Positions 13,919 through 37,763 of a DNA stretch of 64,000 bases are shown piece after piece. Source of the DNA: Symbiodinium sp. CCMP2592 (Eukaryota; Sar; Dinophyceae; Suessiales; Symbiodiniaceae). The notes below the pieces were generated by a model that was not told the DNA's origin, made no database searches, and saw only the letters and a list, made by a program, of their open reading frames with translations. Position 1 is the stretch's first letter. The number at the start of each line of letters is the position of its first letter. Position numbers and translations under genes: made by a program. The stretch spans positions 2,531,894 through 2,595,893 of the forward strand of contig CAJNDT010000001.1 in assembly GCA_905221615.1 (NCBI GenBank). The letters are read 5' to 3'.

Positions 13919-14205
13919 TTAATTTACTTAGTTGTTCTTCCGATTGAGCAGAAACGGCAGCGCTAAAATAAAATGATTCGTGAATCTATTTGCAGCGAAC
14001 CGATATACATATATGTATTGCATAAATTCCTTCAGGAAGCCACACTCGCACTGTCTTCATTTTCACTGGTGACATCGGGCAAGACTCCGGTAACGACATG
14101 CTCAACCGCGGCTGCGATTGAGACATGTCGTATGTGCAAGCGAGGTTAGGCAGCGGGGACTCAGCAGTCCACACGCACACAAGCTACGGCAGGCATAGTC
14201 ACCCC
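13919..14205 (-). repeat. YR-2 terminal repeat B2
   Basis: 287 bp, matching B1 (14650-14752 joined to 22461-22644) with two visible substitutions (GGTAACG against GGTACCG; AGGCAGC against AGGCATC). It forms the downstream end of the element. Confidence 0.92.
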
Positions 14206-14409: not shown

Positions 14410-14649
14410 GGACAAAAATTTCTGCCCATGCCCATGTTGCATGCTGTTTTCACTTGCTCCCTTGAGCATGACCTCGCGGCGGTGCACACAAGTAATCACA
14501 TGCTCGGCTGCACACAGAAGTGTTCAAAGCTTGCAAGAGAAAATCACTTTGCAAATTTTCTTTCCAACTCAATCGGAAGAAGTAAAACTAACCTAGTTTT
14601 ACAAAACAACCACGAAAATTAAAGCGCTATCAACCCGTTGACCGCTAGC
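14410..14649 (-). repeat. YR-2 internal repeat A2
   Basis: 240 bp from ACAAAAATTTCTG to GCTAGC. It matches A1 (30863-31024) except for a 78-bp segment (about 14517-14594) absent from A1. It abuts B1 directly (GCTAGC|TTAATT). Confidence 0.92.
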
Positions 14650-14752
14650 TTAATTTACTTAGTTGTTCTTCCGATTGAGCAGAAACGGCAGCGCTAAAAT
14701 AAAATGATTCGTGAATCTATTTGCAGCGAACCGATATACATATATGTATTGC
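14650..14752 (-). repeat. YR-2 repeat B1, first part (split by YR-1)
   Basis: 103 bp identical to 13919-14021. The repeat is interrupted after TATTGC by YR-1 and resumes with ATAAATTCC at 22461. Confidence 0.92.
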
Positions 14753-14979
14753 TTATTTCCAACTATTCAGGTAAGGTACACATACAGCAAGTGCAATCCA
14801 ACTATTCAGTTAAGGTACACATACAGCCAGTGCAACGAAGCGAGGCAGTCGGACACCTTCTTTTTCAATCCAAAGCGGGGTATGTCTGGTGAGTCCGTAG
14901 CTAAAGAAGGTGCACACACCAGCAAGGATGCACACATCCAACAAGATGATCGGCACACCGTCATCACTCACCCACCCCA
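14753..14979 (-). repeat. YR-1 terminal repeat B2
   Basis: 227 bp, same sequence as B1 at 15195-15421. It contains an internal duplication: two copies of CAACTATTCAG(G/T)TAAGGTACACATACAGC(A/C)AGTGCAA, about 36 bp apart. Confidence 0.93.
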
Positions 14980-14995
14980 GGGGAGGGCGGGCGGG
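14980..14995 (+). other. G-rich spacer with quadruplex pattern at YR-1 B2/A2 junction
   Basis: Sixteen bases GGGGAGGGCGGGCGGG: four G runs with single-base loops, a strong G-quadruplex pattern on the plus (non-coding) strand. YR-2 has GGGCGGGCGGG at the same place, immediately before its ACAAAAATTTCT repeat start. Confidence 0.8.
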
Positions 14996-15194
14996 ACAAA
15001 AATTTCTCATGAGCTGCACACAGCCAAAACTGCAACATCAAGCGTGAATGTTGAGCAAGTGGTCAATCGTCACAATGCATCGAATGCCAAAGACAAGTCG
15101 CCAGCAAATCAAAAAGATCAAAAATTAGCAAAGGCGACACCGACAGAGAATAGTTTGGGAAATAAAATGCTGTCTCGCAAGCGAGAAGGCTTAT
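14996..15194 (-). repeat. YR-1 internal repeat A2
   Basis: 199 bp, reads as identical to A1 at 22262-22460. It begins ACAAAAATTTCTC, close to the start of the YR-2 A repeat, and abuts B1 directly. Confidence 0.94.
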
Positions 15195-15421
15195 TTATTT
15201 CCAACTATTCAGGTAAGGTACACATACAGCAAGTGCAATCCAACTATTCAGTTAAGGTACACATACAGCCAGTGCAACGAAGCGAGGCAGTCGGACACCT
15301 TCTTTTTCAATCCAAAGCGGGGTATGTCTGGTGAGTCCGTAGCTAAAGAAGGTGCACACACCAGCAAGGATGCACACATCCAACAAGATGATCGGCACAC
15401 CGTCATCACTCACCCACCCCA
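15195..15421 (-). repeat. YR-1 internal repeat B1
   Basis: 227 bp copy of B2. The polymerase stop codon at 15438 lies only 16 bp outside it; in YR-2 the matching distance is 15 bp. Confidence 0.93.
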
Positions 15422-15437
15422 CTCAAGAAGATGACGG

Positions 15438-16886
15438 CTAGGGAAGGGTTATGATGGATTGCACTAAGCTGTCGAAAAGAGCTCTCACGCAAGGCTCTGT
15501 CGATGCGCGACTGCGAGGAAGCATACTGCAGTCCTTACCTCTACTGGGGTGGTCTGCCACATTGCTGCACGACGGGACACGTGCTAGCCAGGGCAGCACC
15601 GTGTGCGATTCACAAGTCTTAGCGAAGATGTGACAGATCCGCGTGATAGACCAAGACGATGAGCAGCCCTTGATCAGCGAACATCGTGCGCCTTCGTTGT
15701 CAAGGTATGCCACGCACTCGGTGGACTTCAAGTGTTCCTCCCACAGCTGAAATGCAAGTACAACCGCTATCGCTTCCAACTCGCCGATGCCTGTCTCCGC
15801 TTTCAAGGGCAGCAAAGGGCGAATGTCGGCGCTCTCCAGGAGCAGTGAAAACCACCCGACTACGGAACCCGAAGGCGAGATCAGCACACCACCTAAACCT
15901 CCGGTATAGTCAGGCTCAAAACTGGCATCAGTGTACACGAACCATGGCAGGCCTAGCGGCTTATGAATCCTTCTGGGTTGTCCTTCAAGTATGCGAGCCA
16001 TCAGAAAGCTCAATGCGTCGGTCGTGGCAGCACTCAACTTCGGCATGAAAGGGTATGCATGCACGTGTGTGCTGACATGCTTGAGGGCGTAATGCCCGGC
16101 TTTACCCATAACCTGCGAGTTTGCAAAAGCAAGTTTGCCACGCAACTCCATGCCACCTTTGTAAGAGAGCTGGCCCTTGGCAAGCACGTCCGAAACCAAA
16201 GCATGGATGTCCCTCTTCCTCTTCTCGGTGTTGTCCACGGTAACGACACCACCCCCGCTCTCAGACAAGTCAAAGTGCAATCCAAGAGCCGAGACATCCC
16301 GAGAGAAGGTGTCGGCTTTCGGGCCCACCGTGTCGAACACCCAACCTAACAGCTGGAACAGTAGCTCCATCGTGCTTCCTGTATTGTCTGCTAGGCAGTC
16401 GGGCGACGCTACTATGAAGTCGTCGTAATATGAAGTCGTCGGTACAAGGAGGCAGCGCGTCGCTAACCATTGGATGCACCGAGAGCACCTGATAAAGCCG
16501 TTGACCGATGCTCGGGAACCGAACGGGAGGCAAATCTGTGTGAAAAGGCATGTCTTCCCCGTGTGAGGGTTGTAAACGGCAATCACTGCAAACTTCCTGG
16601 AGGCAGTGGAGACACACAGCTGCCTATATGCAGCGGTCAAGTCGAAAGAACGGCCCTTGATCCAGGAGGGTCGCTTGGCCTTCCCGAGTCCCTCGCACAG
16701 CTTGGCAAACATGGCGGCCGCCACGTCCGCCGTGTCCACTGTGGGCTGCTCTAGGGTGGTCACGCATGCATTCACCCCGCTGCGGCTGTAGTCATCGATG
16801 GGCCTCAATTTGTCGTGTTGCCACAAAGGGAAGCGGTGCGATACGACATACCCGTCAGGCAGGTCGTCCCAACCATATGGGCCCAC
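15438..16886 (-). pseudogene. YR-1 reverse transcriptase and RNase H
   Basis: This frame carries the RT palm (KLRPIDDYSRSGVN, RSFDLTAAYRQL, LPFGSRASVNGFIR) with the catalytic SYYDDFIVA near residue 152. A connection domain follows, then an RNase H-type domain from FVYTDASFE (about residue 320) with AYLDNEGARCSLI and CSNVADHPSRG. It continues the frame ending at 16855. The two are separated by a four-base tandem duplication (AGCC AGCC on the plus strand near 16892), which shifts the phase right after the conserved DRGWL motif. It ends 16 bp before repeat B1. Homologous to the C-terminal half of the YR-2 polymerase; RT of the DIRS/Ngaro type by context. Confidence 0.88.
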
Positions 16887-19452
16887 AAGCCAGCCAGCCC
16901 CTGTCTACCTCCTGCATGGTCTTTTCCCACAACTTCAAGTCAGTGGCATGATCCCCCGATGAACCAAGCGACATCCGAAGGGCTTCATTTGCGCGACCCG
17001 CGGCAGCGCTGACATCGTCAGGGTGAAGGGATGCTGGAGACACTTTCCCAGGCAGCACGTTCGACACAGGCGAGGTCCCCACTAAGTCGAAACCCGATCT
17101 TATGTCACTGGCCAAGCTCACATCCTCATAGCCCTCGCTCGCGATAATCTCGTCCAACAGCTGTAGTCGTTTGCGTCGCAGCACCTCCCTCATGTGCGGG
17201 TCCTCGACTTCCCAGATAGGGTCGGGACGCACACCTATCTCAGCGGCGCGGGCGGTCCACTTATCCAGCCACTGCTTGCGCCGTTCAACAATGGCACTCG
17301 GCGGGGCCTTCGACACTAGATCTATGCAAGATTCAAGATGTGCTGGCAACGAGTCAACCATTGCTTTAGGGTGACCCGCCTTCACGGCGGCACGCACGAA
17401 CTCGCTTTCAGTATGATACACGCCAAACGTCAAGGTACACAGCTCTCGATCCCGCTCCTCGGCAAGCTCAACTTGTGGAGTGTCAGCCCCGTCAACCTGA
17501 GGCGCCGCGATGGCTGGCAGGATCGGGGGGTTGTGACCCGGCAGCGGAAAGCCCAGGTCTAGAAGAAGTCTAGTGTCACTCTGCTTCAGCGACGAAAGAT
17601 TTCTCGGGGTGAAGCCGATCAGGACGATTCTTGATCCGAGCCAAGGCAATGTGCAATGAAAGCGGTGTGCATCAAATTGCACGGGGCCCTCGCAGACTTG
17701 CAATACACGGCCTGTGGATTGGCCGCATGGCGTCATCCGGGAGTGAGTGCCCCCATCATCCTGCACCCAGATGCCTCCATCTTTGAAAGATGTGAGGGGA
17801 GCAACATAGTTCAGAGTGCCCTCCAAGTTGTTTGCATCCCTGTGCATCGGAGTGCAAACGTTGGAGTAAAAGGCAATCGTCGCGAAGCATGCATCTGGGA
17901 AGCATGTACGCAAGTACCTGACCGCGGCAGAGACAACACGAGGGAAAGCTCTGGTGTGCTTCCGCAGGCCACATAGCTTGTTCTGGGAATAAGCTCCCGC
18001 GGTCCAAGCCTTCTCACGAGCATCATCAACGCCACGTGCTGGCACTTCAGCCGGTAAGGTTTCGAATATACTGACAAGGCTGCTGGCATCAACTCTGGCA
18101 CCAAGATTCGAGGCCAGCATCTCTGCTTCACACTCGGTCGCACATACCAGCGAGCCTGAACATGTGGGGCTTAAAGCTAATGGAGCAGCACCGCCTACAC
18201 CCGAAGGGGAAAAGGGGAAGGCGGGAGAACCACAACTGGAAGGTGCTGCTCGCCCAACAGACTGCATGCGAGGGGGCATATCGGCATCGCAAGAGGGATG
18301 AACACTCTCACAGGCAGCACCCACTAGACCCGAAGAGGAAGGGAGGTCACAGGCAGCACCCACTAGACCCGAAGAGGAAGGGAGGGCACCGGCGGAACCA
18401 CAAGGGGGGGGTGCTGCCTGATTCACACCACTCGACGCGTCCGAAGCGTCTGGATTGTGTTCGGCGAGCGATGCTCCAGCCTGCGAAGTACGATGCACCT
18501 GGTTGCAGATCAAACCTTCCCCCTCTACACGATCGGCAGCCAGTCGAGAAAGAGGCGGCACAAGCTTGGAACCAGCAGGCACAACAGTGTCCTGCACGCG
18601 AAGAGTGGCCAGCAGCCGGTTCTTGGAGTCCAGGGGTGGACATTGCGGCACAGCAATTTGCACAAAACGCTTAAATTCAGGAACTGGGGCCAGAGGGAAC
18701 TTGCGTGGCTGCATCCCCGTCGCAACCTGAGCTGCAGCAAGTGGTGGAACCTGCGGAGTGCGAACATGCAGATGCTCGAGCATGACTGATGCGAGCGCAC
18801 GGTAGAGCTGCCCCACAGCAACATCAGTGGAAGACTTTTGGCGACTGGCAGTCGCCAAGCTCGCACAAGATCGAAGGACAAGTGGCAGGGAGGATGCAAA
18901 CCGAATGCAACCGGGTGTTGGGGAGCCAAAGGCACAGAGATCAAAGTCAACCGAAGATTTAAGCAAGCTCTTACCCAAGTCAGTTGTCCAGAACGACGAC
19001 CTCGACGCAGCTTCCACCGTCCAAGGCGTTTCGGTATCATTGCAGTGTTTCAAAAGCTGAGAGATTGCATACACACAGCGGTCAGCATTGTCACAAGAAA
19101 GATGCGGAGATTTCTGACGATTTGGAAATATAGAACGAGGGCACCTGATATGCACCCAAGCACATGAAGGTTCGCGGGCCCATGACGCACAAAGGGCAAG
19201 GCCACCCGGAGACAAAATATCCATTGGAACAACCGGTGCCGCGGCAGCCTGTGAGCAACCCTTGCCAACTGCAAAGGAATTCGGCAACCCCATTCGGAGA
19301 CAACCACACAAGCAGGCACGACGAGCAAAAACTTCAACGCAAAATGCGCTTGCACTGCAAAATTTGCCGTCATCTGACGGCTGGCGCTGTTGTTGCACAG
19401 GTGCCTCAGACTCTTCGGGATCAGCATGTGCAATGAGATCACCTGTGCACAC
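16855..19452 (-). pseudogene. YR-1 polymerase N-terminal part: degenerate methyltransferase-like and dioxygenase-like domains
   Basis: Residues about 38-200 keep the layout of the YR-2 methyltransferase-like domain (EVFARRACLCGCLRMG, PMDILSPGG, an FDLCAFGSP block). Its key motifs are gone: the PPC loop reads HIRCPRSIF and the ENP motif reads VEAASRSS, so it is probably catalytically dead. After a low-complexity linker (residues 330-440), residues about 460-625 form a 2OG-Fe(II) dioxygenase-like domain with an HRD iron motif (H537, D539) and FDAHRFHCTLPW followed by GSRIVLIGF (distal His, 2OG-binding Arg). The domain order, methyltransferase then dioxygenase, is the reverse of YR-2. The frame follows Gag in the same phase after one TGA stop (19459-19461), and is broken from RT by a four-base duplication. 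Confidence 0.75.
18308..18385 (-). repeat. Two tandem copies of a 39-bp coding repeat
   Basis: Two perfect 39-bp units encode a 13-residue repeat (LPSSSGLVGAACD/E-like) in the linker of the YR-1 polymerase. A third, degenerate copy lies on the downstream side. Confidence 0.85.
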
Positions 19453-19458
19453 TGCATG

Positions 19459-20655
19459 TCACTCAGAAGTGGCCGAGTCATGCTCGGACATGGGATGCGA
19501 TTTGTAACAGCCCGGCTTGCAACACACATGCTTGAACTTGCACTTCGCACCCGCTTTGCACTTTCCAAGATTAAAATTGAAACAGATGGGTTTGTTGTCA
19601 GGCGTCCGCGAGTGCATCCCTTTCAAGGCATCTGGTATTGGGTCGCGGGTGATCTTCAACTTCTTATTTTTGCCATCCCCTGGTGTGTCGCTAGTGCGCT
19701 TCTTTCCATTGCCTTTGTCGCCAGGCTTGCCGGAGCCCTTGCCCTTACCTTTGACAGGTAGCAGAAAATACATGACCGATTGGTTGTACTCCAGCTTCTC
19801 AAACTCCTTGTCAAGCGGGAGCACGCCCCTTGCATCAGGCTTCAGGTTCCCATTGCACGTGCGGGCAAGCTCCAAGAAACATTGCCGATCTGCCCTCAGC
19901 ACCTGTGCCCTCGAGACCTTCTGGAACTCCGGTGGCGGGTCCTGGCTCATGATGCGGAAGAGCCGTTCATTCCACTTCTGCACCGTCTCATAAGAAGCTA
20001 AACCAACAAGGTCCATGGCCAAAGCTCGCCTCATCATTGCCTGGTAAAGTTGCAAATCGCTGTCCACTGACATGGTGGCTAGGGCTTCCTCATCCTTCAC
20101 CACGATGCCCATCTTATTAGCGTCGAGCTGCAAGGCCTTGGGAGGCTTCTCACAACACAGCTCAGCATCACGGGTGATGCACTCGCCGGGGGAGAGGTAC
20201 TTCAGTTCGTCGTTCTCGCGCATGTTTGCGAGCTTGTCATACACGCAATGGGCTACGGACAAAGGGCCTTCCAGCGGGAGGCCTTTGAGGCGTTGCTTCT
20301 GATCCTCGATGCGCATTGAGCGCTCCGATGCCGGAAGCTTCCGAGACACATCCTCACCGGATTGCATGGTAGCTCGGAGCTCTGCCACTGTCATGGTCTG
20401 GGCTTCGAAGATAAGCTGTTTCATTGCGGAGCTGTCGCCCAAATTGACTCTCGCCCCGGGCCTCAAAGTAGCAGTGAAGCTATCCATCTCGTCGGCCGTC
20501 GGTTGCGTTCCTGGGAGTGATACTGCATAGCTCAACTTGCCCAGCGTAGTGATGCCTGAAGCTTTCATGGCAGCGATCCAATCCGCTGCCAAGCCCACCC
20601 TTTCACATTGCTTGTCGAAGGCTGCAGCCGAAGTAAGAATTGAAACCGCCGCCAT
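19459..20655 (-). CDS. gag: YR-1 Gag-like protein with CCCH zinc finger
   Basis: 398 codons from ATG at 20655. A helical body (GLAADWIAAMKASGITTLGK at the N-terminus matches YR-2 and YR-3 Gag) is followed by a basic Gly/Lys-rich tail (KGKGKGSGKPGDKGNGKK) and a C-terminal zinc region CFNFNLGKCKAGAKCKFKH. That spacing (C-x7-C-x5-C-x3-H) is of the CCCH type and not the usual CCHC knuckle. A final CCKPGCYKSH follows. The likely role is RNA binding and packaging. The stop is TGA, and the polymerase reads on in the same frame. The frame looks undamaged. Confidence 0.82.
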   Translation of the reverse strand: MAAVSILTSAAAFDKQCERVGLAADWIAAMKASGITTLGKLSYAVSLPGTQPTADEMDSFTATLRPGARVNLGDSSAMKQLIFEAQTMTVAELRATMQSGEDVSRKLPASERSMRIEDQKQRLKGLPLEGPLSVAHCVYDKLANMRENDELKYLSPGECITRDAELCCEKPPKALQLDANKMGIVVKDEEALATMSVDSDLQLYQAMMRRALAMDLVGLASYETVQKWNERLFRIMSQDPPPEFQKVSRAQVLRADRQCFLELARTCNGNLKPDARGVLPLDKEFEKLEYNQSVMYFLLPVKGKGKGSGKPGDKGNGKKRTSDTPGDGKNKKLKITRDPIPDALKGMHSRTPDNKPICFNFNLGKCKAGAKCKFKHVCCKPGCYKSHPMSEHDSATSE

Positions 20656-20997
20656 CCCGCAAGGTCACCAATCTCTACACTGCTGTGAAGTACAATGTGT
20701 CAACAAGGGTCCAGGCCTGATCTAGAGAGAACATGCAAGCGCCTGGTCCGAATGCACACAAGCTGTTGAAACAAAGCGAGTAGACAAAAGCATGGACATG
20801 ACATGTCTACCATAGGCCTCAGCCATAACTGGTGCATTCACAAAGATCATGAACTGGTGCTGACCATTGCCCAAGCACAGTAAGGCATCCACTAGATGGT
20901 GCATTCACTCAAACAGCACATGCTGCACACAGCATGGGCAAATCAGACTGCACACAGTCGCAACCGCACTTCAAGAACATTTCATACGCAGCTCACA
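20656..20997. other. YR-1 region between Gag start and recombinase tail
   Basis: 342 bp without a supported ORF. It contains short CTGCACACAG-type motifs that also occur in the YR-1 A repeat (22262 onward). It is the equivalent of the tandem-repeat spacer in YR-3. Confidence 0.5.
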
Positions 20998-21789
20998 CTA
21001 GCTACGATCCATAAGCTCATTGAGCTTGTCGGCCAAAGCCCCTTGGGAGTCCAGCAGTTCTCCCTTCCAGCACACTGCGCACCTAGTCCACTTAAAGTAA
21101 GCACCCTCAAGCCACCTGTACACCGTGGTCGTCCGTCGACCACAACGGGTCCTACATGCTGACTGGTCGCCCTGGGCTCGATGCAACATCCTGGATTTGA
21201 CGTGTTGCCAACAAGGTTCGTTGATCTCATAGTCCTGGTTGACTCCGCAATTCGAAACCAACTGCTCCTCATCTTCACTGTCACCTGAAGAGCTAGAGCT
21301 CGAAGAGGAGGATGAGCTTGTCTGCGCCAAGGCAGCCTCCTGCATAGGTGTCGCAGGCACACTACTTGCATGCACAATCGGAGACGGTGCACAATCCCCG
21401 GGCGTCGGCGAATGTTCTGAAGGTGGGCTTGCTGAACCGTTATCAACCCGATCCCAAGAACTGAAGTCTGGATCATGCCCAAATGCCGATGAGTCAGGGG
21501 CACGGTTGAGTGAGCGGTAGTGCTCCAACTCGCCGTGTTCATCGAGATCATCTCCTTGTCCCGTCCCGCTAGCTGCAGGACCCTCAGCTTGCACGGTCGG
21601 AGCTTCGAAGGGGCATGCATCCTTGGGGTCATCGAGGAAGGAATCCCGAAAGGCACGCAGATTCTCGTCAGCATGTGAGGCAAGCCACCCCGAACGGGTT
21701 GCATCGGGCTTGAAAATGTTTGTGCGTATCTCCCATAACATTCTGCGGTAAGCCCTCAGCGGTGCGCTCAGCAACTCTCGGCTGTAACA
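20998..21789 (-). pseudogene. YR-1 recombinase remnant: C-terminal tail only
   Basis: The reading frame includes a Tyr codon at 21784-21786 followed by SRELLSAPLRAYRRMLWEI, which aligns with the residues after the nucleophile Tyr in YR-2 (YAVDLATSAVKEFEQVLRDI). A long acidic Ser-rich linker follows, then a Cys/His tail (MLHRAQ..., CRTRCGRR, CAVC) shared with YR-2 and YR-3. Upstream of the Tyr the frame hits stops and a C12 run (21829-21840). The core-binding domain and the Arg and His catalytic boxes are missing, an estimated loss of about 2 kb compared with YR-2. Confidence 0.78.
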
Positions 21790-21904
21790 AGCAAGTGAAC
21801 AATGTCAGTGTCACAGAGCCTCACCTCACCCCCCCCCCCCGCAGAAGAGGAGAGGCCGGGGAAACTATTCGGCTCGCCAGCAGGCGGCATGCGGTGAAGC
21901 TGCT

Positions 21905-22159
21905 CTAGCGACGAGAAAAGCAAGCGCAAAACGAGCTGAGCGAAGCGGCCCACGTGACCTCTGATGCAGATCCTGGCGATGACAGAAGCTGCTGCTCCAA
22001 CTGCCTGATGCGCCTTTGACAGGCAGACACGTGGGCTTCAAGAGTGTTAACCTGCAATTGAAGCTCGTAGAGATGCCTGCTGATGACGCTCACAGTACTG
22101 GGAGACTCGCCGTCACTGGGCACACTGGAACCTGCAGCCAAAGCTTCTGCGAAGTCCAT
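21905..22159 (-). CDS. YR-1 ORF1, small coiled-coil protein
   Basis: From ATG at 22159 (MDFAEALAAGSS), the same opening as YR-3 ORF1 (MDFGDALVDGSS). A short coiled coil follows (HLYELQLQVNTLEAHVSACQ). About 84 residues. It lies 100 bp inside repeat A1. Function unknown; conservation of the opening and the coiled coil in two diverged elements argues that it is a real protein. Confidence 0.65.
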   Translation of the reverse strand: MDFAEALAAGSSVPSDGESPSTVSVISRHLYELQLQVNTLEAHVSACQRRIRQLEQQLLSSPGSASEVTWAASLSSFCACFSRR

Positions 22160-22261
22160 CCGACTGCCCCACAACGGGCAGTCTTGCACAGCGGGCTAAT
22201 CCCAGCCTTTGTTTTAGCACCTTGGGGCTTTTAGCAAGCAATACAGCCTCTAGAGAGCCCC

Positions 22262-22460
22262 ACAAAAATTTCTCATGAGCTGCACACAGCCAAAACTGCA
22301 ACATCAAGCGTGAATGTTGAGCAAGTGGTCAATCGTCACAATGCATCGAATGCCAAAGACAAGTCGCCAGCAAATCAAAAAGATCAAAAATTAGCAAAGG
22401 CGACACCGACAGAGAATAGTTTGGGAAATAAAATGCTGTCTCGCAAGCGAGAAGGCTTAT
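22262..22460 (-). repeat. YR-1 terminal repeat A1
   Basis: 199 bp, reads as identical to A2 (14996-15194). It forms the upstream end of YR-1 in coding orientation. Confidence 0.94.
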
Positions 22461-22644
22461 ATAAATTCCTTCAGGAAGCCACACTCGCACTGTCTTCATT
22501 TTCACTGGTGACATCGGGCAAGACTCCGGTACCGACATGCTCAACCGCGGCTGCGATTGAGACATGTCGTATGTGCAAGCGAGGTTAGGCATCGGGGACT
22601 CAGCAGTCCACACGCACACAAGCTACGGCAGGCATAGTCACCCC
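22461..22644 (-). repeat. YR-2 repeat B1, second part
   Basis: 184 bp matching 14022-14205 of B2 with two mismatches. It resumes exactly where 14752 stopped. Confidence 0.92.
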
Positions 22645-22659
22645 TAATTAACCGCGGTC

Positions 22660-25600
22660 CTAAGCAAGAATGTCATCAAGCGTTTTTGCAACCGGAGTCG
22701 CCTTGATAATCCCTGCCTTTCCCTTCAAGACTTTAACTAGCTTTCTAGACAAAATGTCAGAGGGATTCGAAGGACTCGGAACACGGGATATCCAAGTGTT
22801 TAGCCCTGCCATGTCTTCCACCGAGAGGAGTAACTCGATGAGCATCTTGCCTGTGTCGTTTCTTGCCCTCCCCGAAATGCACACGTCTCGAGCGCTATTG
22901 TTATCCACGTAGGCAACTAATGCATGATGCATGACGCGCTTGCGCCAAAGCACTATTGCAGCAATGTACGCTACAAGTTCCGCCTCGAAGATGATGGTTT
23001 TCTTCGTGGCGCTGCCAAGCTTCTCCATTTGTTTCCGGTCCAGTTCATACGAGAAGAAACTCAGCATCTCGCCCTCATGATCATAAAGCACGCCGCCTAT
23101 GCCGCACTTGGGGCCCTGAGCGCCTGCCTCATAAGCGGCGTCGGTGAAGATGTATCGCGGGGTGTGGGCTGGCCTCGCCAGCACACGTGGCTTTGAGTCT
23201 CTGAGAAGCAGTGCATATCGATTCAAGGCAACAAGAGCGTCCTGTCCAAGTTCCGCTTGGCCCAACGCGATATGTGCATCCAACTCCTTGAGGCAGAGCT
23301 TGCTGGCACGGCCAAAAACTTGGCCGTCGGCAAATTGTAGCCGACCCCTGAGCCGCTGTGCATCTTTGTTGCGCAGCTCCTTGCTTTCAACTGCATGGGT
23401 AAGTGCAGTCAGGAGTTCTTGCACCCTGCAGTCAGTGTTCCCAACCTCCACACGCCCGCTGCTGAAATGTTCCAAGTGAAACCTCACCCCTAATGATTCG
23501 AACGTGCTGCCAAACTCCTGTGCCTTCTTCCCCTCCTCTGCGAACTGCCACCCTAAGAGTCTAAAGAAACGGGGAATGTGATCGGCAGTGAAGGCGCAAT
23601 CCGATTGTCTTGCTAGCGTGGGGAAGTCGTCGAAGTAGCACGTCCATAAGAAGCCCAGGTGGCACCCGAGCGTCCAGACTGAATGCACGGTCCTGAGAAA
23701 GGAGTGCACACTTCTCACCGCTCCGAAGGGTAAAGCTTTAAGGCGATGCACTGAAGGTCGACCTGACTGCTCATCATGGAAAGCTACGTATGCATCCTTT
23801 AGGGCATCCTTACTTAGGCCAAGCTGGCGGTAAGCGGACTTAAGGTCATAACTTCGGCCTTTAAGGTTATCCCTAGGGAAGGATTCCAAACATTGCAGCA
23901 TCAAGCATGCCAGCACGTCTGTCGTGTGCGGTTGCGGCGATTCGCACGCCTGCACGGCTGCATTCACGGAGCTCCCAGACAAGTCATCTATGAGTCGCAC
24001 CTTTTGAGATTCGCCGGAACCTTGCGATAACCCAAACCTTCTACTGACTAAGGCCTCATCCTCCAAATCGCTAGGATTGATCGGCCCTTCTAACCAACCC
24101 TTGTCATGCTCTTCGGCTGTTTTGCGTTTCACCTCCCGGTCTAGCTCGCCTTGGGATCGCACCGACTCCAAGACGTGCTTCCTGGATTGCGATGCTTTGC
24201 GGTGGACCTCTTGCGGTGATGCCGCAGCAGGCTTGAACACTTGGGGAAACAATCCTGTAAGTGGCACCTGACCCACCAAGTCTGTGCCGTTGATCATTTC
24301 TTCGACAACTTCCATGTCCTCGTAGCCGATGTCCTGCAGGAGCTCTTTCCACAAGAGGATTTTCTTAGACCCTAAGATGGCCCTTAGGTGGTCTGGCATC
24401 TCGGCTTTGAGTGCCTCCTCACTCTCCTCCAAGGCTGCTGCCCTGGCTTCCCACTTCTCAAACCACCTTTCCCTGAACTCAAGTAATTCTTTAGAAGACA
24501 ACGATCGGTTGATTTCCACAGCCTTCTGAAGTGCCCGCGGCAGAGGAATCCTCAACAGTTTAGGGTGTCCCGCTTTGCATGCGGCCTGAACAAAAGCCTC
24601 GGGGGAATAGGGCACGCCCCACGCCTGTTCAAGAGTAGGCTCAGTAGAGTTCAGATTCACAGCAGAATCGTTGACCCCCGAATCGCCGACCCCCTCTTTA
24701 ACCGAAAGTGGTACAGTTCGAAGAAGTTGCGCATTGGCGGGAATGCGGCGCACAGAAGCAGAACAGGCCTCGGGCAGATCCCACGGTTGTGCTAGGCGGC
24801 CCATGGGGGCGCATGGAGCAGCATCGAGGGCCGTTTTCGGGCCACGAACCAGCAGTACAGTGCAAGGCTCCGGCACGAGAGCGGGAAATTTAGCCGCAGC
24901 AGGCTGAGGTCCAGACGCGGCGCGGCAAGCAGACAGCAAGCTAGCTGGCTTGGGCAAGGTTTGGGATGGCTGCCAGCCAGTATGCACCAAATGAGTTGCA
25001 ACACAATGGGCGATGGCGGCCGCCAGAGGCGGCGGGTAAGCTGTCTCGGCTTTGGTTGCGAAGCCGTTGGGAGTGAGGCCCCAGGGCTCATGGTGATGTT
25101 CCGGAGACTGGCCCGGGCAAGAGCGCTGCAGCGATGAGAAGACATCATGGGTGGCCGCTAAGGTCGTCCGTTTCGGGCGGGAGCCTCCGAACATGCAGTG
25201 GTCGAAGGAGGTGCGGAAAGGGCACAGGTGCGCTATGGCTTGGAAAGGCGTGGTGGCCCAGAACCACGACCGGTGCGGATTCTCGCACACGAAAAGCACA
25301 TCCCGACGGTGGCATTCCAGAGCAACCTTGGCCAAGAAGGCATACAAGACATTGGCGGCCTCAACTCGTTGCTTATCTGAACCCTGAAGGTCTGGCAAAC
25401 CGTCGGGAAACTCGGAGGAGCGCAGAGGCGGTGGGCTTGGGATTGGCACGCCTGAAGCATCGTAGACTGGGATGTCTCGTGCACGGCTGGAAGTACCACA
25501 AGGTGGGGCTGCTACCACAGCCGATAGCAGCGGATTGCACAACCAAAACATGGCCAGATCCTGGCCATCCTGAGTGGTGAGGTCTGCGATCAAGGGAGCA

Positions 25601-26436
25601 CACGCCGCAGATTCAACATGTTTGTGGTCGATTCCGTGGGCTGTAACTCCCAGGCGGCGGAGGCAGGCTGTAACACGAGAAGTGCCAGAGAACAGCTCGA
25701 ACACGACGGGCGTGGCTGGTGCCTTGAAGATTGGACGCGGTACTGGCACCATGGTTCCTTGCTGAATGACGTCACCTGTGGCTAGGTCGGGGGGGCTAAA
25801 CCCTAGGGAGACCAACGCTGAATGATCAGCTTCTGACAGGGCCGCGAAATCGCGGACTACAAACCCGGCTAAAACTACCCGGTAACCGCTCCAAGGCATG
25901 GTGGCATGCCGTCGATGGGCATCGAATGTGATACATGTATTCGAGACCGGTAAAAGCTCTCCGCACAAGTGCGCATGGGGCAGCGGCCCTGCATGCTCGC
26001 CTGAAGCGCCTTCGAGCCACAACTGGCCCTCAGTGAAGGTGGAGACCCCAATCAAGAAATTCGGAAAATCTTTGGCATTATTTCGGTCGGCGTGCAGCGG
26101 TGTGAGCACCTGAGCCATCAAGGCCAAGGAAGTGAATGGCAAATCGTGCCCCCAACTCTTAGCATAGGTGGTTAGCATCCGACACACCGTCGGGAATTCA
26201 TGACACGTGCGGCGCAGCCCCAACATGGGGCCTTGGACATAGGCACCGACACTGAAAGAAAAACTGGATTGATGAGTGATGTCAGGGTGTGATCTGGCCG
26301 GCGCTTCTGAAGGCAACAAGCTTATGAGCTGTATTATGTCATCAGAAGTAATTCTAGGCTTACTGAGGCAAGCGGCTGCGAACTCCTCAGCTGTGGCATG
26401 CATTTGATCCTGTTGTGCACTGAGGTCTCCTGTCAA
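22660..26436 (-). CDS. YR-2 polymerase: dioxygenase-like + C5-methyltransferase-like + RT + RNase H
   Basis: 1258 codons open throughout. Residues 60-210: 2OG-Fe(II) dioxygenase-like, with HAD at 115-117, distal His 174 or 177 in FDAHRRHATMPWSGYR, and Arg 186 before VVLAGF. Residues 244-490: methyltransferase-like, with ELFSGTSRV (SAM loop) at 247, AAPPCGTSSRA at 309 (catalytic Cys 313 expected for cytosine-C5 enzymes), CENPHRS at 384 and GGSRPKRTTL at 417. Residues 775-990: RT with VRLIDDLSGSSVN, RSYDLKSAYRQL and the active site YFDD at 934-937. Residues 1090-1240: RNase H with D1098, E1150 and D1177 (YIFTDA, IIFEAE, VAYVDNN). It follows Gag in the same frame after one TGA (26500-26502). Expected activities (DNA methylation and oxidation of a methylated base) are inferred from motifs only. 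Confidence 0.85.
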   Translation of the reverse strand: MTGDLSAQQDQMHATAEEFAAACLSKPRITSDDIIQLISLLPSEAPARSHPDITHQSSFSFSVGAYVQGPMLGLRRTCHEFPTVCRMLTTYAKSWGHDLPFTSLALMAQVLTPLHADRNNAKDFPNFLIGVSTFTEGQLWLEGASGEHAGPLPHAHLCGELLPVSNTCITFDAHRRHATMPWSGYRVVLAGFVVRDFAALSEADHSALVSLGFSPPDLATGDVIQQGTMVPVPRPIFKAPATPVVFELFSGTSRVTACLRRLGVTAHGIDHKHVESAACAPLIADLTTQDGQDLAMFWLCNPLLSAVVAAPPCGTSSRARDIPVYDASGVPIPSPPPLRSSEFPDGLPDLQGSDKQRVEAANVLYAFLAKVALECHRRDVLFVCENPHRSWFWATTPFQAIAHLCPFRTSFDHCMFGGSRPKRTTLAATHDVFSSLQRSCPGQSPEHHHEPWGLTPNGFATKAETAYPPPLAAAIAHCVATHLVHTGWQPSQTLPKPASLLSACRAASGPQPAAAKFPALVPEPCTVLLVRGPKTALDAAPCAPMGRLAQPWDLPEACSASVRRIPANAQLLRTVPLSVKEGVGDSGVNDSAVNLNSTEPTLEQAWGVPYSPEAFVQAACKAGHPKLLRIPLPRALQKAVEINRSLSSKELLEFRERWFEKWEARAAALEESEEALKAEMPDHLRAILGSKKILLWKELLQDIGYEDMEVVEEMINGTDLVGQVPLTGLFPQVFKPAAASPQEVHRKASQSRKHVLESVRSQGELDREVKRKTAEEHDKGWLEGPINPSDLEDEALVSRRFGLSQGSGESQKVRLIDDLSGSSVNAAVQACESPQPHTTDVLACLMLQCLESFPRDNLKGRSYDLKSAYRQLGLSKDALKDAYVAFHDEQSGRPSVHRLKALPFGAVRSVHSFLRTVHSVWTLGCHLGFLWTCYFDDFPTLARQSDCAFTADHIPRFFRLLGWQFAEEGKKAQEFGSTFESLGVRFHLEHFSSGRVEVGNTDCRVQELLTALTHAVESKELRNKDAQRLRGRLQFADGQVFGRASKLCLKELDAHIALGQAELGQDALVALNRYALLLRDSKPRVLARPAHTPRYIFTDAAYEAGAQGPKCGIGGVLYDHEGEMLSFFSYELDRKQMEKLGSATKKTIIFEAELVAYIAAIVLWRKRVMHHALVAYVDNNSARDVCISGRARNDTGKMLIELLLSVEDMAGLNTWISRVPSPSNPSDILSRKLVKVLKGKAGIIKATPVAKTLDDILA

Positions 26437-26499
26437 GGTGGTTGCGGCTGAACAGTCATGGACGCGCTCAGCAGGATCATGAAAAGTGACAGGATCAGT

Positions 26500-27430
26500 T
26501 CAAGCTCCACCCGCAGCCGGACATTGGCCGATCGGGTGAGCTCCCTCGCACTTGGCACACACGTGGGCCCTGCTGCAATTGGGATGCGTGCATCCCTCCA
26601 GGTTGAACGCGAAGCAGATGCGCTGCCCCTGCTTTGTCATGGGCTTGGCTCCTTTCTGTCGCAAAACCAAGGGCATAGGAATGCTATTGGCATCCGGCGC
26701 GCCCTTGCCCTTCCCTGTTTTGCCCTTGCCCGGTTGTTTGCCCTTGCCTGAGCCTTTACCCCCTTTGGCACCGTCGTGGCCACGCCACTTGTTCGCATGA
26801 TCACCGGTGGATGGATTCTTTCGCTTGAAGCCCGCTGGCAAGGGAACCAGGAGGGATGACACTGTGTATGATTCAAGAGCGACATGAAGTGCGCGGTCCA
26901 TGTCGCAGCTTCCATCTGGATTGGCACGGGGTCGCCTGTTCTCCTCAAGCATATGCACCCAAACGGCCCTGTCTGCTTGAATCAGCTGCTCGATGCCGAC
27001 ACGCTGGTGGTTTGCTGGGGCAGGCCGGCGAAAGTGCATCATAAGCTTAGCCAGGTAACCTTCATACTCGCCAAGGCTGACGCAATTAGCCATGACGTAA
27101 GCATAACCCCTTCGTTTGAACCCTTCAAGCAGAGCCAACGCACCGTGAACTGGTTGATCTGTAGTTTCAGCATGCTCACGCACTGCGATTTTCCCTGCCT
27201 CCACTTCAAGAACTTTCGACGGCTTATGGTGATTTAACAGCTCGTGCTGGCGAGAGACACACTTTTCAATCGGAATGTGCTTGAAGACATTTTCGCGGTG
27301 CTGTTCACAAGTCAGATCAAGCAATGAATGCCCAGGCTCCATGGTTGAGTCGATGTGCAGTCCAGGATTAGCAGCCTTAAACATGGACAAGCGTTGGGAC
27401 TTCTCGGCCTCTGGTAGCTTCTGCTTAGTG
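26500..27430 (-). pseudogene. gag: YR-2 Gag-like protein, C-terminal part with CCCH finger
   Basis: This frame continues the Gag homologous to YR-1 Gag after a frameshift near 27430. It shares the motif block around a conserved EKCVSRQHELL, a basic Gly/Lys tract (KGGKGSGKGKQPGKGKTGKG) and a C-terminal zinc region CFAFNLEGCTHPNCSRAH (C-x7-C-x4-C-x3-H). A second Cys/His set, CAKCEGAHPIGQC, follows. It ends in TGA with the polymerase in the same phase downstream. The frame between 27390 and 27430 is open in this phase and matches YR-1 in content. Confidence 0.78.
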
Positions 27431-27725
27431 TATTGTCTGGATCCAGGATCGACTGACGGAGTGCACTTAGCTGCAGGGTTTGCGATTCAAACAACAGGCG
27501 CTTAAAGGCAGCAACATCTCCCAAAGACAAACCAGGGAGGTTCGACTCAAGCCACTCCTTCAAAACCTCTTCGGGCAGGTCTTGACCGGGCGTCCCGATG
27601 AGATGTGCTGTGGTCCCCAGTGTCTTAACTCCCAGGCCCCCTAACTTGCCCACTGTTGGCTGACTCAAATTGATCTCCTTGCATCGTCGCTGAAAGTGAG
27701 CCTCAGAGTCAAGAATGGCAGTCAT
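27400..27725 (-). pseudogene. gag: YR-2 Gag-like protein, N-terminal part
   Basis: From ATG at 27725. LSQPTVGKLGGLGVKTLGT aligns with GLAADWIAAMKASGITTLGK of YR-1 Gag. LGDVAAFKRLLFESQTLQLS aligns with LGDSSAMKQLIFEAQTMTVA. The phase is lost near 27430 by a small indel, so this copy does not give a full Gag. Confidence 0.75.
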
Positions 27726-27999: not shown

Positions 28000-29319
28000 C
28001 TAAAGGCCGGCAGCGACCCTTCTACAGTTGTGGCACGTGCCACTGATTTGCCCAAAACTTTTTGGGACGACATAATTGGAGGTCCCAACTTTCCCACATG
28101 CCAAAATGGCATTTCCTCCCCCAGACCGCGCAACCACATAATGGCATTTCTTGGACTTCACATGCACAAGTGAGTCTTTCAAGCCCCACGGCCAGTCCTG
28201 CTTCTGAACCTTCTGAGCGGGCTGCTCATCCTCGGACGATGATCCCGAACTCTCAGCACTCTCGCTGTCGGATGAGGAGCTGGAATCCGAACTGACGTCC
28301 ACAATCTCGCCTTGACTCGGCATCCCGTCACAAGCGTCTGGCTCTGACTTAATTGCATCCTGGGACGGCTCGGGAGGAGCGACGAAATATTCTGCCCGCG
28401 GGTTGTCTGGTTTGAAACGTCCTGATGAGATGTCTCGAAGAACTTGCTCAAACTCTTTCACTGCCGAAGTAGCTAAGTCAACGGCATAAATAGCCTGCGA
28501 TCCGATCGTGGCAGATGCATGCCTGCCCAAAACTGATCTTACTGGTTCGCTTGTCCCGAACTTGGAGCACCAGGCTAGTGGAGTGCACTTGAGCGAATGT
28601 GAAGAGATGCGCTTCAGGCGCTCTTCATCACACACCGGGCCCAATGCGATCCTCAAGAATGACGTGATCTCCGCTGCTCTGATCTCACGCTTAGACAGCA
28701 TTTCACCATCTGCAGACATGGGGGCCCTCAGAAGCGGGCCCTCAACTTTGCCCTGGACCTCCATGCCCACAGCGCTGAGAGCGTCCAGCGCCGAAGACAC
28801 CCATTGGGTGCCAGTGACGCCTATCGCTGGGATCAGAACTGGAAGAAGCTTCTTCGAACGTGCAGTGACATTGTTCGTCTTATGCATCCCCAGATACAAG
28901 ACCACATACCCAGAAGACTCGCTGAACTCATGCTCAATCCACTGGATGTCCGAAAGGTCGCTGTTTCTACAACGCCCATAGAGCGCAAAGAGACATCTGG
29001 CTGCCATGGCTCTATCGAAGCTGTGGGCTCCCCGGTCTTCCACCATGGTGTGCAATCGGCATGTTTCGCCCACTGTCAAGGCTTCAGCTTGACGCAACCA
29101 ATGGACCCCAACAGACATTTGTTCCGCAATTCCACACACCCGCCGGCTCTGCAAGACATCGTCCAAGTGGAAGCCAAGCACATGGTGAAGGAAGCGCATT
29201 GCACTGAGGATCCCAGCCCCTTTCGAGGCCGCTGCACCTGCCCTTTTGAGGTCGGTCATATATGCCCACAGCGACGCTTCTGACAAGCAGTCTGACTCTG
29301 ATGCAGGGCCGTTAAGGTA
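28000..29319 (-). pseudogene. YR-2 tyrosine recombinase catalytic domain and C-terminal tail
   Basis: The frame continues in phase from ORF2 (29320 onward) after a single TGA, where YR-3 has no stop. Counting from 29286, the catalytic set is Arg 105/107 (LYGRCRNSDL), H230 and K233 (SHSLKCTPLAW), H256 (VLGRHA) and Tyr 267 (QAIYAVDLA). The second Arg of the classical HxxR is Lys here. After the catalytic domain come an acidic Ser-rich linker and a tail with CHYV, ACGK and CHNC that may bind zinc. Its role would be to integrate the DNA form by recombination, consistent with the clean insertion junctions. It sits upstream of Gag and RT, contrary to the usual DIRS/Ngaro order. Confidence 0.85.
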
Positions 29320-30423
29320 TCATCTGAGGAATGTGTTGAAGGCATTCGCACGCTTGTCTATCGTCCAAGGGGAGCGAGTGCCGACAGCAGCCGTCACCGA
29401 TTCTGGATCAACCTTCCCGCTGCGCTGCAGCGTGCAAGGAACCAAGTTCAGGGGCACAAGCCGGAGGCACGCAACCAACTTACCTAAACTAACTTCCAAG
29501 ACCTCAGCACGCCTCTCGCGGAAGGATAGGTTCTTAGTGGCTTTGATGGCCACTGCGAAAATCGGTTTACCTTGAAGATACACCTTGGCGCTCACAGCTA
29601 CGTGGGTCGTTTCTTGATGGGTTGGCTCCTGGGGCACAAGGAGCCTTTTGGCAATCAAGGGCATCTTAGGTACCGTTGGCAGTGATGGCAAGGATTCACT
29701 GAAGACGGCGCGCATGGGGCCGCGCTCCCACGGAAACTTCAGTTTGCTCAGTGACGGATTCGAGACCAACTCGGTCGACACCACGGCAGCCACATCAACA
29801 AGCGGTGCTATCATGGGCTCCTGAGGGCTGGTAGTGAAAACCCCGGCTACAGGAGGTGTGATCAAGCTTGCATCTGATCCTACCGGTCGCCAAGAGGAGC
29901 TGGATCCTGCAGCTAGCTGCTCTAAGTGTTTATCGAACTCACTCAAAAGCCCTGCCTCGGTTTCAGCTACTTCCTTATAATGCTGCCATTCTGCCGAAGG
30001 GTCACAACTTTCTTGTTCTTCCCAGCCTTCCGGTTCCAAGTCTGGTGAGGGATCCACATTTTCGGGCTCGGAAGTGCCCGCCAGGCCTAAACCACAAGAA
30101 AGTTGAAGGTCTACACCACTAGGAACCGAAGGGGGGAGTGGTGGAAACTCGGGTCGGGGCTCTGGGTTTTCTCCACTGTCTACACCACCGAGCGGCTGCT
30201 CGTTCGACGTCTCAAGCTGTTCTGAAGGGTCTGCTACCCCGGCCGCAAGTTGGTCTGCAGGCAGAGGTGTCAAGATCTCAACTTCTGGCGCAAGATGGTC
30301 CGAAGGCAGAACCGCAACCCCCTGATTATCCGAAACATGGCCCGTAGCATCAGGCACCGAGTGAGCCGCCTCGGGCGCAGCTGGAAGCAGGCGCGGGAGC
30401 GCACCTGTTGCTGAGTCAGACAT
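29320..30423 (-). CDS. YR-2 ORF2: disordered region plus recombinase core-binding domain
   Basis: From ATG at 30423 (MSDSATGALPRLLP), which overlaps the ORF1 stop (ATGTCTGA). The first 200 residues are Pro/Glu/Ser-rich and probably disordered. A conserved box FPWERGPMRAVF follows; YR-3 has LLPWERGPFAWVF at the same place. The C-terminal 100 residues (VSLGKLVACLRLVPL..., WTIDKRANAFNTFLR) form the start of the recombinase core-binding domain. The phase is shared with the recombinase frame and only one TGA (29320-29322, in the place of a likely Trp codon) separates them. It is therefore best seen as the N-terminal half of the recombinase protein. Confidence 0.72.
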   Translation of the reverse strand: MSDSATGALPRLLPAAPEAAHSVPDATGHVSDNQGVAVLPSDHLAPEVEILTPLPADQLAAGVADPSEQLETSNEQPLGGVDSGENPEPRPEFPPLPPSVPSGVDLQLSCGLGLAGTSEPENVDPSPDLEPEGWEEQESCDPSAEWQHYKEVAETEAGLLSEFDKHLEQLAAGSSSSWRPVGSDASLITPPVAGVFTTSPQEPMIAPLVDVAAVVSTELVSNPSLSKLKFPWERGPMRAVFSESLPSLPTVPKMPLIAKRLLVPQEPTHQETTHVAVSAKVYLQGKPIFAVAIKATKNLSFRERRAEVLEVSLGKLVACLRLVPLNLVPCTLQRSGKVDPESVTAAVGTRSPWTIDKRANAFNTFLR

Positions 30424-30790
30424 GACGATATTGCAGGGCAGGATCACGGAGGGCAATACGGTAAAACGATGTGCGGGCTGGCTCTAACACGAAGGCAGCT
30501 GTTTGCAGAAGGGCTCCGCGCGCTCGAAATGACAGAAAATTCAGCAGCACTGCGCAGGGCCGTGGGGTAAAGGTGATATCCCCGAGATCAAGAAGAACCA
30601 AAGTGGAAGTAGCTGTGCTGGCACCGACTGAGCTGGCTGATGGAGACTGCAGAGGACTTGGGCGCAAGCGGTACTCCAAAACTGTGACCCTGAATTGCAA
30701 TGCAGCGATCTGATCCTGCAAGTCCTCCCGCAGCACGCGGAGGTCCTCTGAAAGCACGGCGCTGGGACCCACGGAGGTGGAGTCACTCAT
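30416..30790 (-). CDS. YR-2 ORF1, small coiled-coil protein
   Basis: 124 codons from ATG at 30790, 72 bp inside repeat A1. It contains a coiled coil (LREDLQDQIAALQFRVTVLE), as the small ORF1 of YR-1 and YR-3 do, then a Ser/Pro stretch. Its stop overlaps the ORF2 start by eight bases, which would allow termination-reinitiation. Function unknown. Confidence 0.65.
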   Translation of the reverse strand: MSDSTSVGPSAVLSEDLRVLREDLQDQIAALQFRVTVLEYRLRPSPLQSPSASSVGASTATSTLVLLDLGDITFTPRPCAVLLNFLSFRARGALLQTAAFVLEPARTSFYRIALRDPALQYRHV

Positions 30791-30862
30791 GAGGCACGAA
30801 GCCGATGTGTTGTGCTACAGAAGACTAAGTGTAGAAATGTGATGCTGAAGATATGTGTCCAG

Positions 30863-31024
30863 ACAAAAATTTCTGCCCATGCCCATGTTGCATGCTGTTT
30901 TCACTTGCTCCCTTGAGCATGACCTCGCGGCGGTGCACACAAGTAATCACATGCTCGGCTGCACACCCTAGTTTTACAAAACAACCACGAAAATTAAAGC
31001 GCTATCAACCCGTTGACCGCTAGC
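30863..31024 (-). repeat. YR-2 terminal repeat A1 (with internal deletion)
   Basis: 162 bp equal to A2 (14410-14649) minus 78 bp. The deletion joins GCACAC to CCTAGTTTT. It ends GCTAGC at the junction with Z-A. Confidence 0.9.
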
Positions 31025-36070: not shown

Positions 36071-36518
36071 TGCGTGGGGATTTGATCTCAATGATGTTGC
36101 TGCTCTCCCCACCAGAGCTGTAATGAATATAGGTGTGGCTGGCTTGCACTCTCCACAGACTGGGACCCTGTCTCTCTCACACTTCCACACGTGCAATCCT
36201 ATGCAGGCAGAACCGGCGGCCGTTCCTTTTTCACTCGCTGCCGGCGGCGGTTCGTCTGTGCACGGGATAGCTCTGATTGCTCAGGATAGAAGACACATAT
36301 AGCACTTAGCTATGGGCATTGACTTGAGCCAAACGTTGCGTGGGCGGTCACATAGAAAGGTAAGGAGAAGCGATGCGGTGTGCGTAGCACGTCCACAAGC
36401 TTACTCCTAGAGTCGAGGGACGCGTAGCGTGCCCCCTTCTCTTGCACTCTACACGGTCTTGCTCACAGCTCTTATAGTGACACCTTAGAACTTGACAAGG
36501 CATCGCAGTCCGTTCGCA
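36071..36518 (-). repeat. 5' LTR of Z-A
   Basis: 448 bp from TGCGTGGGG to TTCGCA. The right edge touches the microsatellite. On the coding strand it contains TTTGGCTCAAG (rc of 36323-36333), the same as the last 11 bases of the dinoflagellate spliced leader. Confidence 0.9.
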
Positions 36519-37287: not shown

Positions 37288-37763
37288 TGCGTGGGGATTT
37301 GTTCGTGTTGTTGCCCGTAATGCTCACCCCACAGAGCTGTTGTATTGATAGCGTGGTTGCCCTTCAGGTACACGATCGCAACTGCTCCCTTCTCCCACTC
37401 TTGTCCCTATCCCTGTGCAAGCAGATACCACGCAGCTTCCTTTTGCACTCTGCGGCCGGCAGTGCTGTCGGTGCACGGGATTGGCTCTGATCTCTAGGAA
37501 TCACGAAGAACGAATGCTTTCACTATGGGCATATGCGTTCTAGCGCATGTGCTCACACTTGAGCCTTGAGCCTTGAGCCAAAGTTGCGATTGGCGGAAGT
37601 CAGAAAAGAATGGCTTAGCATCACGGCGTGCGTAGCACTGCCGCTAGCTTAACCGAAGATGAGGGACGCGTAGCGTGCCCTCTTTGTTGACCTGTACATG
37701 GCCATGCTCACAGCTCTTATCGTGATACCATAGGATTTGACTAGGCATCGAAGTCCGTTCGCA
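37288..37763 (-). repeat. 3' LTR of Z-B
   Basis: 476 bp, TGCGTGGGG to TTCGCA, reading the same as 58891-59366. It contains three tandem CTTGAGC units at 37558-37578 followed by CAAAG. On the coding strand this is TTTGGCTCAAG followed by two more GCTCAAG. Confidence 0.94.

Follow-up and report, generated by a model that had tools for sequence, protein, structure and literature searches.

The window, as the whole stretch of 64,000 nucleotides from Symbiodinium sp. CCMP2592 is called here, carries on its minus strand a DIRS-like (tyrosine-recombinase) retrotransposon, whose Pol open reading frame (ORF) begins with what is, judged from its sequence, a divergent TET/JBP-like oxygenase, followed by a C5-methyltransferase-like domain, reverse transcriptase (RT) and RNase H. 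We lean, with modest confidence, towards the reading that this DIRS-like Pol uses its TET/JBP-type oxygenase to oxidise a 5-methyl pyrimidine in the cDNA of the element itself or in the DNA at the insertion site. The ORF runs from stop to stop over 1279 codons, with the motifs HAD (residues 136-138), H195/H198, R207, ELFSG (268), PPC (332), ENP (406) and YFDD (955). A first-pass annotation had described a polyprotein with an HxD...H...R domain, then a PPC/ENP domain, then RT and RNase H, and this frame is present, on the minus strand, which had been left unstated; the span it gave, 22660-26436, is the same frame begun 21 codons later, with residue numbers 21 lower and all motifs found. Below, L011-L042 are the genomic copies of the superfamily examined beside the window, and P-numbers are database proteins.

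22660..26499, minus strand: Pol ORF, in the order oxygenase, methyltransferase-like domain, RT, RNase H; 1279 codons and a TAG stop
25798..26259, minus strand: TET/JBP-like 2-oxoglutarate (2OG)-Fe(II) oxygenase domain (residues 81-234), with L041 as the link to Pfam Tet_JBP
26086..26094, minus strand: HxD motif H136-A-D138, predicted iron ligands
25906..25908, minus strand: H198, predicted third iron ligand
25879..25881, minus strand: R207, predicted 2-oxoglutarate-binding arginine

The oxygenase domain

The iron triad HxD...H and the distal arginine occur in the order seen in TET/JBP enzymes, and they are highly conserved. In an alignment of 36 sequences, some of them partial, where each count refers to the rows with a letter at that column, H136 is kept in 29/31, D138 in 30/31, and H198 and R207 in 32/32 each; the exceptions at the first two positions, P0010 and P0050, look like gene-model chimaeras. 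All of HxD, H and R are kept in the 21 full oxygenase domains of the window and L011-L030, as well as in nearly every other full-length row, persisting across distances where most of the sequence has changed.

Regarding the family, Pfam scans of these 21 domains gave Tet_JBP in three, Asp_Arg_Hydrox in two and nothing in 16, both families being 2OG-Fe(II) oxygenases. The Tet_JBP matches, in L019 and two other members, are weak (E 0.012, 0.14 and 0.13), the best one spanning HxD to R. The decisive link, obtained without bias, came from searching the genome with Tet_JBP (PF12851) in six frames (E up to 0.001, 150 of 155 candidates scored), which gave four matches (best E 2.2e-4, 29.6 bits), all in open frames of 1231-1283 codons. 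The two that were read, L041 and L042, have the oxygenase and methyltransferase-like domains side by side, as our own hidden Markov models recognise the oxygenase at 9.8e-45 and 9.6e-38 and the methyltransferase-like domain at 2e-69 and 1.5e-69, respectively. Both stretches stop before the RT position; their frames are taken as probable Pol ORFs from the domain pair and frame length, and for L041 also from a gag-like cysteine-rich end and an upstream TGA. In hmmscan, the L041 oxygenase matches Tet_JBP with E 2.5e-7, this being the sole Pfam family for L041 and also for L042. The best phmmer match of the L041 oxygenase in the PDB is human TET2 (E 0.065, not significant alone), aligned at the iron motif (HRDTHNM/HRDLHNM) and at the distal histidine (LHATLP/LHATTP).

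Several observations weigh against this assignment. The L041 oxygenase reaches 30.5 bits, under the curated Tet_JBP cut-off of 34.9 bits, and therefore the domain is named TET/JBP-like and is not presented as a formal member of PF12851. The window's own domain matches no Pfam family, being tied to L041 only via the profile of its own family (141.6 bits), and no oxygenase was found in the PDB with the oxygenase family profile or with L019 alone. The Asp_Arg_Hydrox matches, in L029 and L030, are weak (best 0.0045) and cover only an N-terminal stretch outside the catalytic part, while 5/21 members have weak matches to PHROG 274 ('endonuclease V' by name, best 0.0068), and 1/21 touches a PHROG named 2OG-Fe(II) oxygenase (0.48). 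At the positions that we take to hold the base in TET2 and NgTet1, namely the residue three after the HxD aspartate, an aromatic at R+6 and a histidine at R+8, the family has Asn in 29/31 and F or Y in 32/32 at the first two, and P, I, V or L in 32/32 at the third, without the histidine of TET2. As this agreement is mixed, the substrate cannot be read from the sequence.

The H-to-R spacing, presumably shorter in the window's family than in TET2, was considered as an argument against a TET relationship and dropped, since L041 matches Tet_JBP and protist TET relatives also have a short spacing. A protein search for standalone relatives of the oxygenase (candidates of about 97-308 amino acids) gave three matches, all of them fragments of the same family.

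The first-pass annotation had named TET/JBP and AlkB as enzymes with the motif pattern of this domain. The sequence favours the former, by the Tet_JBP matches and L041, and the AlkB assignment was rejected because no AlkB family appears in the Pfam scans of the window, the 21 member domains, L041 and L042. This same absence, with the sequence pointing to Tet_JBP, makes it quite improbable that the domain is an RNA demethylase, AlkB-like in effect, protecting the element RNA, for instance from the abundant m1A of dinoflagellate mRNA (PMC11549093), even considering the orchid Gypsy element whose AlkB is an active m6A RNA demethylase (PMC9289625).

The methyltransferase-like domain

24988..25710, minus strand: C5-methyltransferase-like domain, residues 264-504, with ELFSG, PPC, ENP, RPKRT and YP..LA
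25498..25506, minus strand: PPC motif, with the predicted catalytic Cys334
25276..25284, minus strand: ENP motif

The second domain has motifs I (FxG-like), IV (PPC), VI (ENP/ENV) and VIII in the order of C5-methyltransferases. With its profile, DNMT2 is the first PDB match (E 0.013, over motifs I-IV); when the rows are chosen differently, DNMT2 (0.049) comes second to a chain bearing the name 'Methyltransferase' (0.031). In NCBIfam, the best match is a dehydrogenase, in 3/16 members (0.014). Thus, a C5-methyltransferase-like nature is plausible from the motif order and the weak DNMT2 matches, which agrees with the first-pass annotation, whereas the Pfam model DNA_methylase (PF00145), which does not match the domain, withholds formal recognition. 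Over the genome, PF00145 gave 124 matches, none of them at the places listed for the oxygenase-methyltransferase family (only the best candidates being scored). Since this model misses the domain, it is probably not the published SymbioDIRS-Dnmt3 insertion; it would be related to that insertion more remotely, or else be a case of the same fold used convergently. Separately, DNA_methylase matches were seen in frames of 985-1224 codons (G000:C280, C1473, C3223 and C5004), possibly of the published SymbioDIRS-Dnmt3 type and distinct from the oxygenase-methyltransferase family.

Genomic copies and purifying selection

The element is multi-copy in its host, and the two-domain frame is not a product of chance. 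In the genome searched (1.1 Gb, 5383 contigs), residues 60-520 gave at least 116 matching stretches, and 18 of these, counting the window, match over the full length with at least 97% identity, 12 of them having the exact 1279-codon frame. Against the two-domain region of the window, the other subfamilies show identities of 92, 87, about 55, about 50 and about 40%. Among 10 near-identical copies, CpG transitions account for 21 of the 95 variable sites.

Pairwise dN/dS (w, Nei-Gojobori) was calculated within the window's family for moderately diverged pairs, meaning those across window/L011-L014, L015/L016 and L017/L018. The oxygenase has w 0.11-0.16 at dS 0.29-0.64, the methyltransferase-like domain 0.04-0.06 at dS 0.60-1.63, and RT 0.02-0.08; between L029 and L030, the values are 0.10, 0.06 and 0.06, respectively. 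Both domains thus appear to be maintained by purifying selection, with two reservations: very close pairs are noisy, with few changes each (oxygenase w 0.01-0.65, methyltransferase-like up to 0.98), and distant pairs with saturated dS reach w of about 0.4.

A second, related element, the neighbour, lies within the one under study, and its Pol has the two domains in the opposite order.

17548..18009, minus strand: oxygenase domain of the neighbouring element, HxD, H and R intact
18871..19344, minus strand: methyltransferase-like domain of the neighbour, degenerate, having lost PPC and ENP, and preceding the oxygenase

Between the two copy groups of the neighbour's lineage (dS about 0.2-0.4), w is 0.08-0.12 for the oxygenase and 0.03-0.13 for RT; the motif-less methyltransferase-like domain has 0.10-0.23 at dS above about 0.25, and the spacer 0.14-0.51. 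As this motif-less domain is still under purifying selection, it likely has a role beyond catalysis in that lineage (window 18871-19344, L031-L040). The same values would suit the reading that both domains are catalytically idle and retained to give the polyprotein structure or to bind nucleic acid, to which we give little credit, the oxygenase having kept its four predicted catalytic residues in every full domain of the window and L011-L030.

Distribution across lineages and domain order

The architecture sample comprises 88 sequences: 70 proteins found with residues 60-560 as the query, 15 found with the neighbour's oxygenase, the window protein and two ORFs of the neighbour; its composition is shaped by the two queries. 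Profile scans gave methyltransferase-RT in 50, oxygenase-methyltransferase-RT in 16, methyltransferase-oxygenase-RT in 10, oxygenase-RT in four, with eight others, the first class being overestimated because some proteins are called only from their first Met. Reading the methyltransferase-only members as losses of the oxygenase was therefore rejected, as the oxygenase is often not preceded by any Met in Pol; for example, P0007, P0015 and P0068, of the methyltransferase-RT class, fall among oxygenase-bearing rows in the RT tree. In this tree, the oxygenase-bearing rows are scattered over several clades and include both domain orders, with deep placements that are long-branched and unsure. Absence of both domains from most family members, which would have counted against the first-pass annotation, is not seen in the copies examined.

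The order of the domains is swapped between lineages, and the methyltransferase-like domain is the more variable of the two: PPC and ENP are lost in the neighbour's lineage, PPC is lost in L027/L028, and the domain is altered and shortened in L023-L026, all of these keeping the oxygenase residues. This pattern bears on the proposal of the first-pass annotation that the element could both place and undo methylation on its own copies, the methyltransferase-like domain marking element DNA and the oxygenase removing the mark, so that the element would switch its own copies. The co-occurrence of both domains in one ORF, both under purifying selection in the window's family, stands from that proposal, and the SymbioDIRS-Dnmt3 domains were shown to methylate CG in yeast (PMC5890265). 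However, the methyltransferase is not detectable as DNA_methylase, and the oxygenase persists in several lineages where the methyltransferase motifs are gone, with the order swapped, making a strict writer-eraser pair less likely; an obligate pair does not fit with these repeated losses, and the proposal as a whole seems unlikely.

The gag-pol junction

26500..26502, minus strand: in-frame TGA separating gag from pol, conserved superfamily-wide

The stop separating gag from pol is TGA in 30/31 junctions and in L041, covering eight sequence groups, and is never TAA or TAG. The junctions are those of the window, L011-L039 and L040, the last with extra stops; copies within a group are not independent, and two of the groups, L019/L020 and L023-L026, are 73-80% alike. 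After the TGA, Pol continues in the gag frame, with its initial residues conserved from one copy to another. In the window, L013 and L041, Pol has its first Met at codon 33-35; L027/L028 and the neighbour's lineage have it at 50-56, and the remaining copies have none within the first 80 codons. A conserved in-frame UGA followed by a Pol mostly without an early Met makes this junction a candidate for readthrough, and programmed UGA readthrough in dinoflagellate DIRS-like elements, which it suggests, is the simplest reading. In the RNA downstream of the UGA, no structural feature common to all groups was found.

Proposed mode of action

In the preferred reading, readthrough of the in-frame UGA after Gag would yield a Gag-Pol fusion, with the oxygenase as the first Pol domain in the window's order. 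This fusion would carry the oxygenase and the methyltransferase-like domain, together with RT, into the replication particle where the cDNA is made. There, or at the insertion site, the oxygenase would oxidise the 5-methyl group of a pyrimidine in the element cDNA or in the target DNA, and the oxidation may change the recognition or silencing of the new copy. The first candidate substrate would be 5-methylcytosine (5mC), because Symbiodinium genomes are mostly CG-methylated (PMC5890265), and the second would be thymine, because 5-hydroxymethyluracil (hmU) is abundant in dinoflagellates (PMC6723414); in Breviolum, a link between hmU and repeats has also been suggested (PMC11071213).

The second candidate can also be taken as an explanation of its own, where the enzyme is a thymine hydroxylase producing hmU in element DNA, so that the copies would resemble the hmU-rich DNA of the host or carry its silencing mark. 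The TET/JBP family includes the JBP thymine hydroxylases (PMC11065319), and an oxygenase retained where methyltransferase motifs are missing agrees with a substrate that is not 5mC of the element's own making. Nevertheless, an hmU enzyme of the host has been described (Li 2024, by its title), and the base-specificity residues examined do not separate thymine from 5mC, leaving this explanation somewhat unlikely.

Returning to oxidation of a 5-methyl pyrimidine by the element, a wider view, which we put forward tentatively and hold short of probable, is that of a large dinoflagellate retrotransposon superfamily with its own TET/JBP-type oxygenase, delivered by Gag-UGA-Pol and writing hmU or oxidised 5mC into element DNA. 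If true, retroelements would be producers of the unusual bases of dinoflagellate chromosomes, not only their targets, and the fused methyltransferase-like domain would be an optional partner, repeatedly lost. If the enzyme is active, the superfamily would provide a defined, multi-copy and apparently young source of DNA-base oxidation in hosts rich in hmU and 5mC, as well as a series of lineages, some with both domains intact, some without the methyltransferase motifs and some with the order swapped, for learning how a transposon uses the oxygenase and the methyltransferase.

Structure of the element and its inserted neighbour

30862..31024, minus strand: repeat A1
22461..22644, minus strand: repeat B1, first piece, continuing at 14681-14755 beyond the inserted neighbour
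14681..14755, minus strand: repeat B1, second piece
14411..14649, minus strand: repeat A2, with an extra stretch of about 75 bases absent from A1
13950..14205, minus strand: repeat B2
14753..22463, minus strand: second DIRS-like element, within B1
26503..27486, minus strand: last 328 codons of the gag ORF, whose N-terminal part is in another frame further upstream
28000..29319, minus strand: tyrosine recombinase ORF, catalytic part, with the invariant R, K, HSLK, G.H and Y
29320..30483, minus strand: recombinase ORF, N-terminal part, cut off by a TGA in the window copy
23050..24183, minus strand: RT and the start of RNase H, residues 773-1150, YFDD at 955-958

The element is a DIRS-like retrotransposon by its recombinase motifs and its A-coding-B-A-B repeats, as the direct repeats follow the order A1, coding part, B1, A2, B2. 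Gag is upstream of pol in the same frame, with one TGA between them, and the tyrosine recombinase ORF lies further upstream. Its R, K, HSLK, G.H and Y residues, whose catalytic roles we assume, are invariant in 10 aligned copies, which places the element among the DIRS-like ones, while the recombinase ORF has no Pfam recombinase match and no sequence match in the PDB. In the window copy, damage affects gag and the recombinase but spares Pol: by eye, the gag N-terminus is in a different frame upstream of 27486, and the recombinase ORF, open over 827 codons in L011, L012 and L014, is interrupted by an in-frame TGA at 29320.

The two B1 pieces, once joined, match B2 nearly letter for letter by eye, and therefore the neighbour was inserted into the element under study. 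The neighbour has its own repeats, 100% identical within each pair (A at 22262-22463 and 14996-15197; B at 15195-15421 and 14753-14979), and a protein of Symbiodinium sp. CCMP2592 matches its oxygenase region at 98% identity. Between the oxygenase and RT, the Pol frame of the neighbour is interrupted, while L032, L033, L035 and L037 have a single frame in that region.

In a PDB profile search with the whole polyprotein, the RT region gave weak RT matches (best 0.0046), and arginine methyltransferases (0.28-0.54) outranked DNMT2 (0.62), none of these methyltransferases being significant. Searching the PDB with P0001 by phmmer gave two matches, both insignificant. The PADLOC scan found no system, and no related locus was found in the viral contigs searched.

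Other features of the window

At 51439-53350, two overlapping ORFs resemble, by eye, a further tyrosine recombinase (HSLK...GHH...Y). At 36496-37406, about 800 bases consist of tandem units with a 12/18-base spacing, open on both strands (TNTN... and ILIL... frames). Beside this array lie two repeats, 37288-37587 with 58891-59190 (100%) and 1-126 with 36393-36518 (99%).

Comparison with known systems

Retrotransposon-borne methyltransferases and a retrotransposon-borne AlkB are known. The titles and abstract openings of the open-access literature searched gave no TET/JBP-like oxygenase in a retrotransposon polyprotein, nor its fusion with a methyltransferase-like domain.

The nearest system is SymbioDIRS-Dnmt3, also a dinoflagellate DIRS-like element with a methyltransferase and RT in one Pol ORF, a separate recombinase ORF, A-coding-B-A-B repeats and more than one domain order (PMC5890265). 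It differs in that its DNMT belongs to the Dnmt3 clade, whereas the window's domain is missed by Pfam DNA_methylase, and no oxygenase occurs in the main text describing it, where 'dioxygenase' and 'tet' have 0 occurrences (de Mendoza et al. 2018, PMC5890265). DIRS1-like elements also combine a tyrosine recombinase, RT/RNase H and a methyltransferase domain in Pol (PMC3266345), but the methyltransferase follows RNase H, being Dam-like according to PMC5890265; their repeats are inverted terminal and internal complementary, and the consulted part of that source describes no oxygenase.

Regarding the oxygenase, TET/JBP proteins (PF12851; human TET2, trypanosome JBP1) share the HxDxxN...H...R pattern and are the sole Pfam family for L041, whereas the domain of the element has about 155 residues, is inside a retrotransposon polyprotein and scores under the curated cut-off. 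Fungal KDZ DNA transposons linked with TET/JBP genes are a similar association with mobile DNA, but these are DNA transposons with separate genes. The orchid Ty3/Gypsy element with AlkB is likewise a retrotransposon bearing a 2OG oxygenase, although this is of the AlkB family, in an additional ORF of its own, within a long terminal repeat (LTR) element and acting on RNA (PMC9289625).

For the junction, the parallel is Tca2, which we take not to be a DIRS-like element. This retrotransposon of Candida albicans, an unrelated host, also has a UGA between gag and pol, whose bypass is the question addressed by its paper (PMC2194720).

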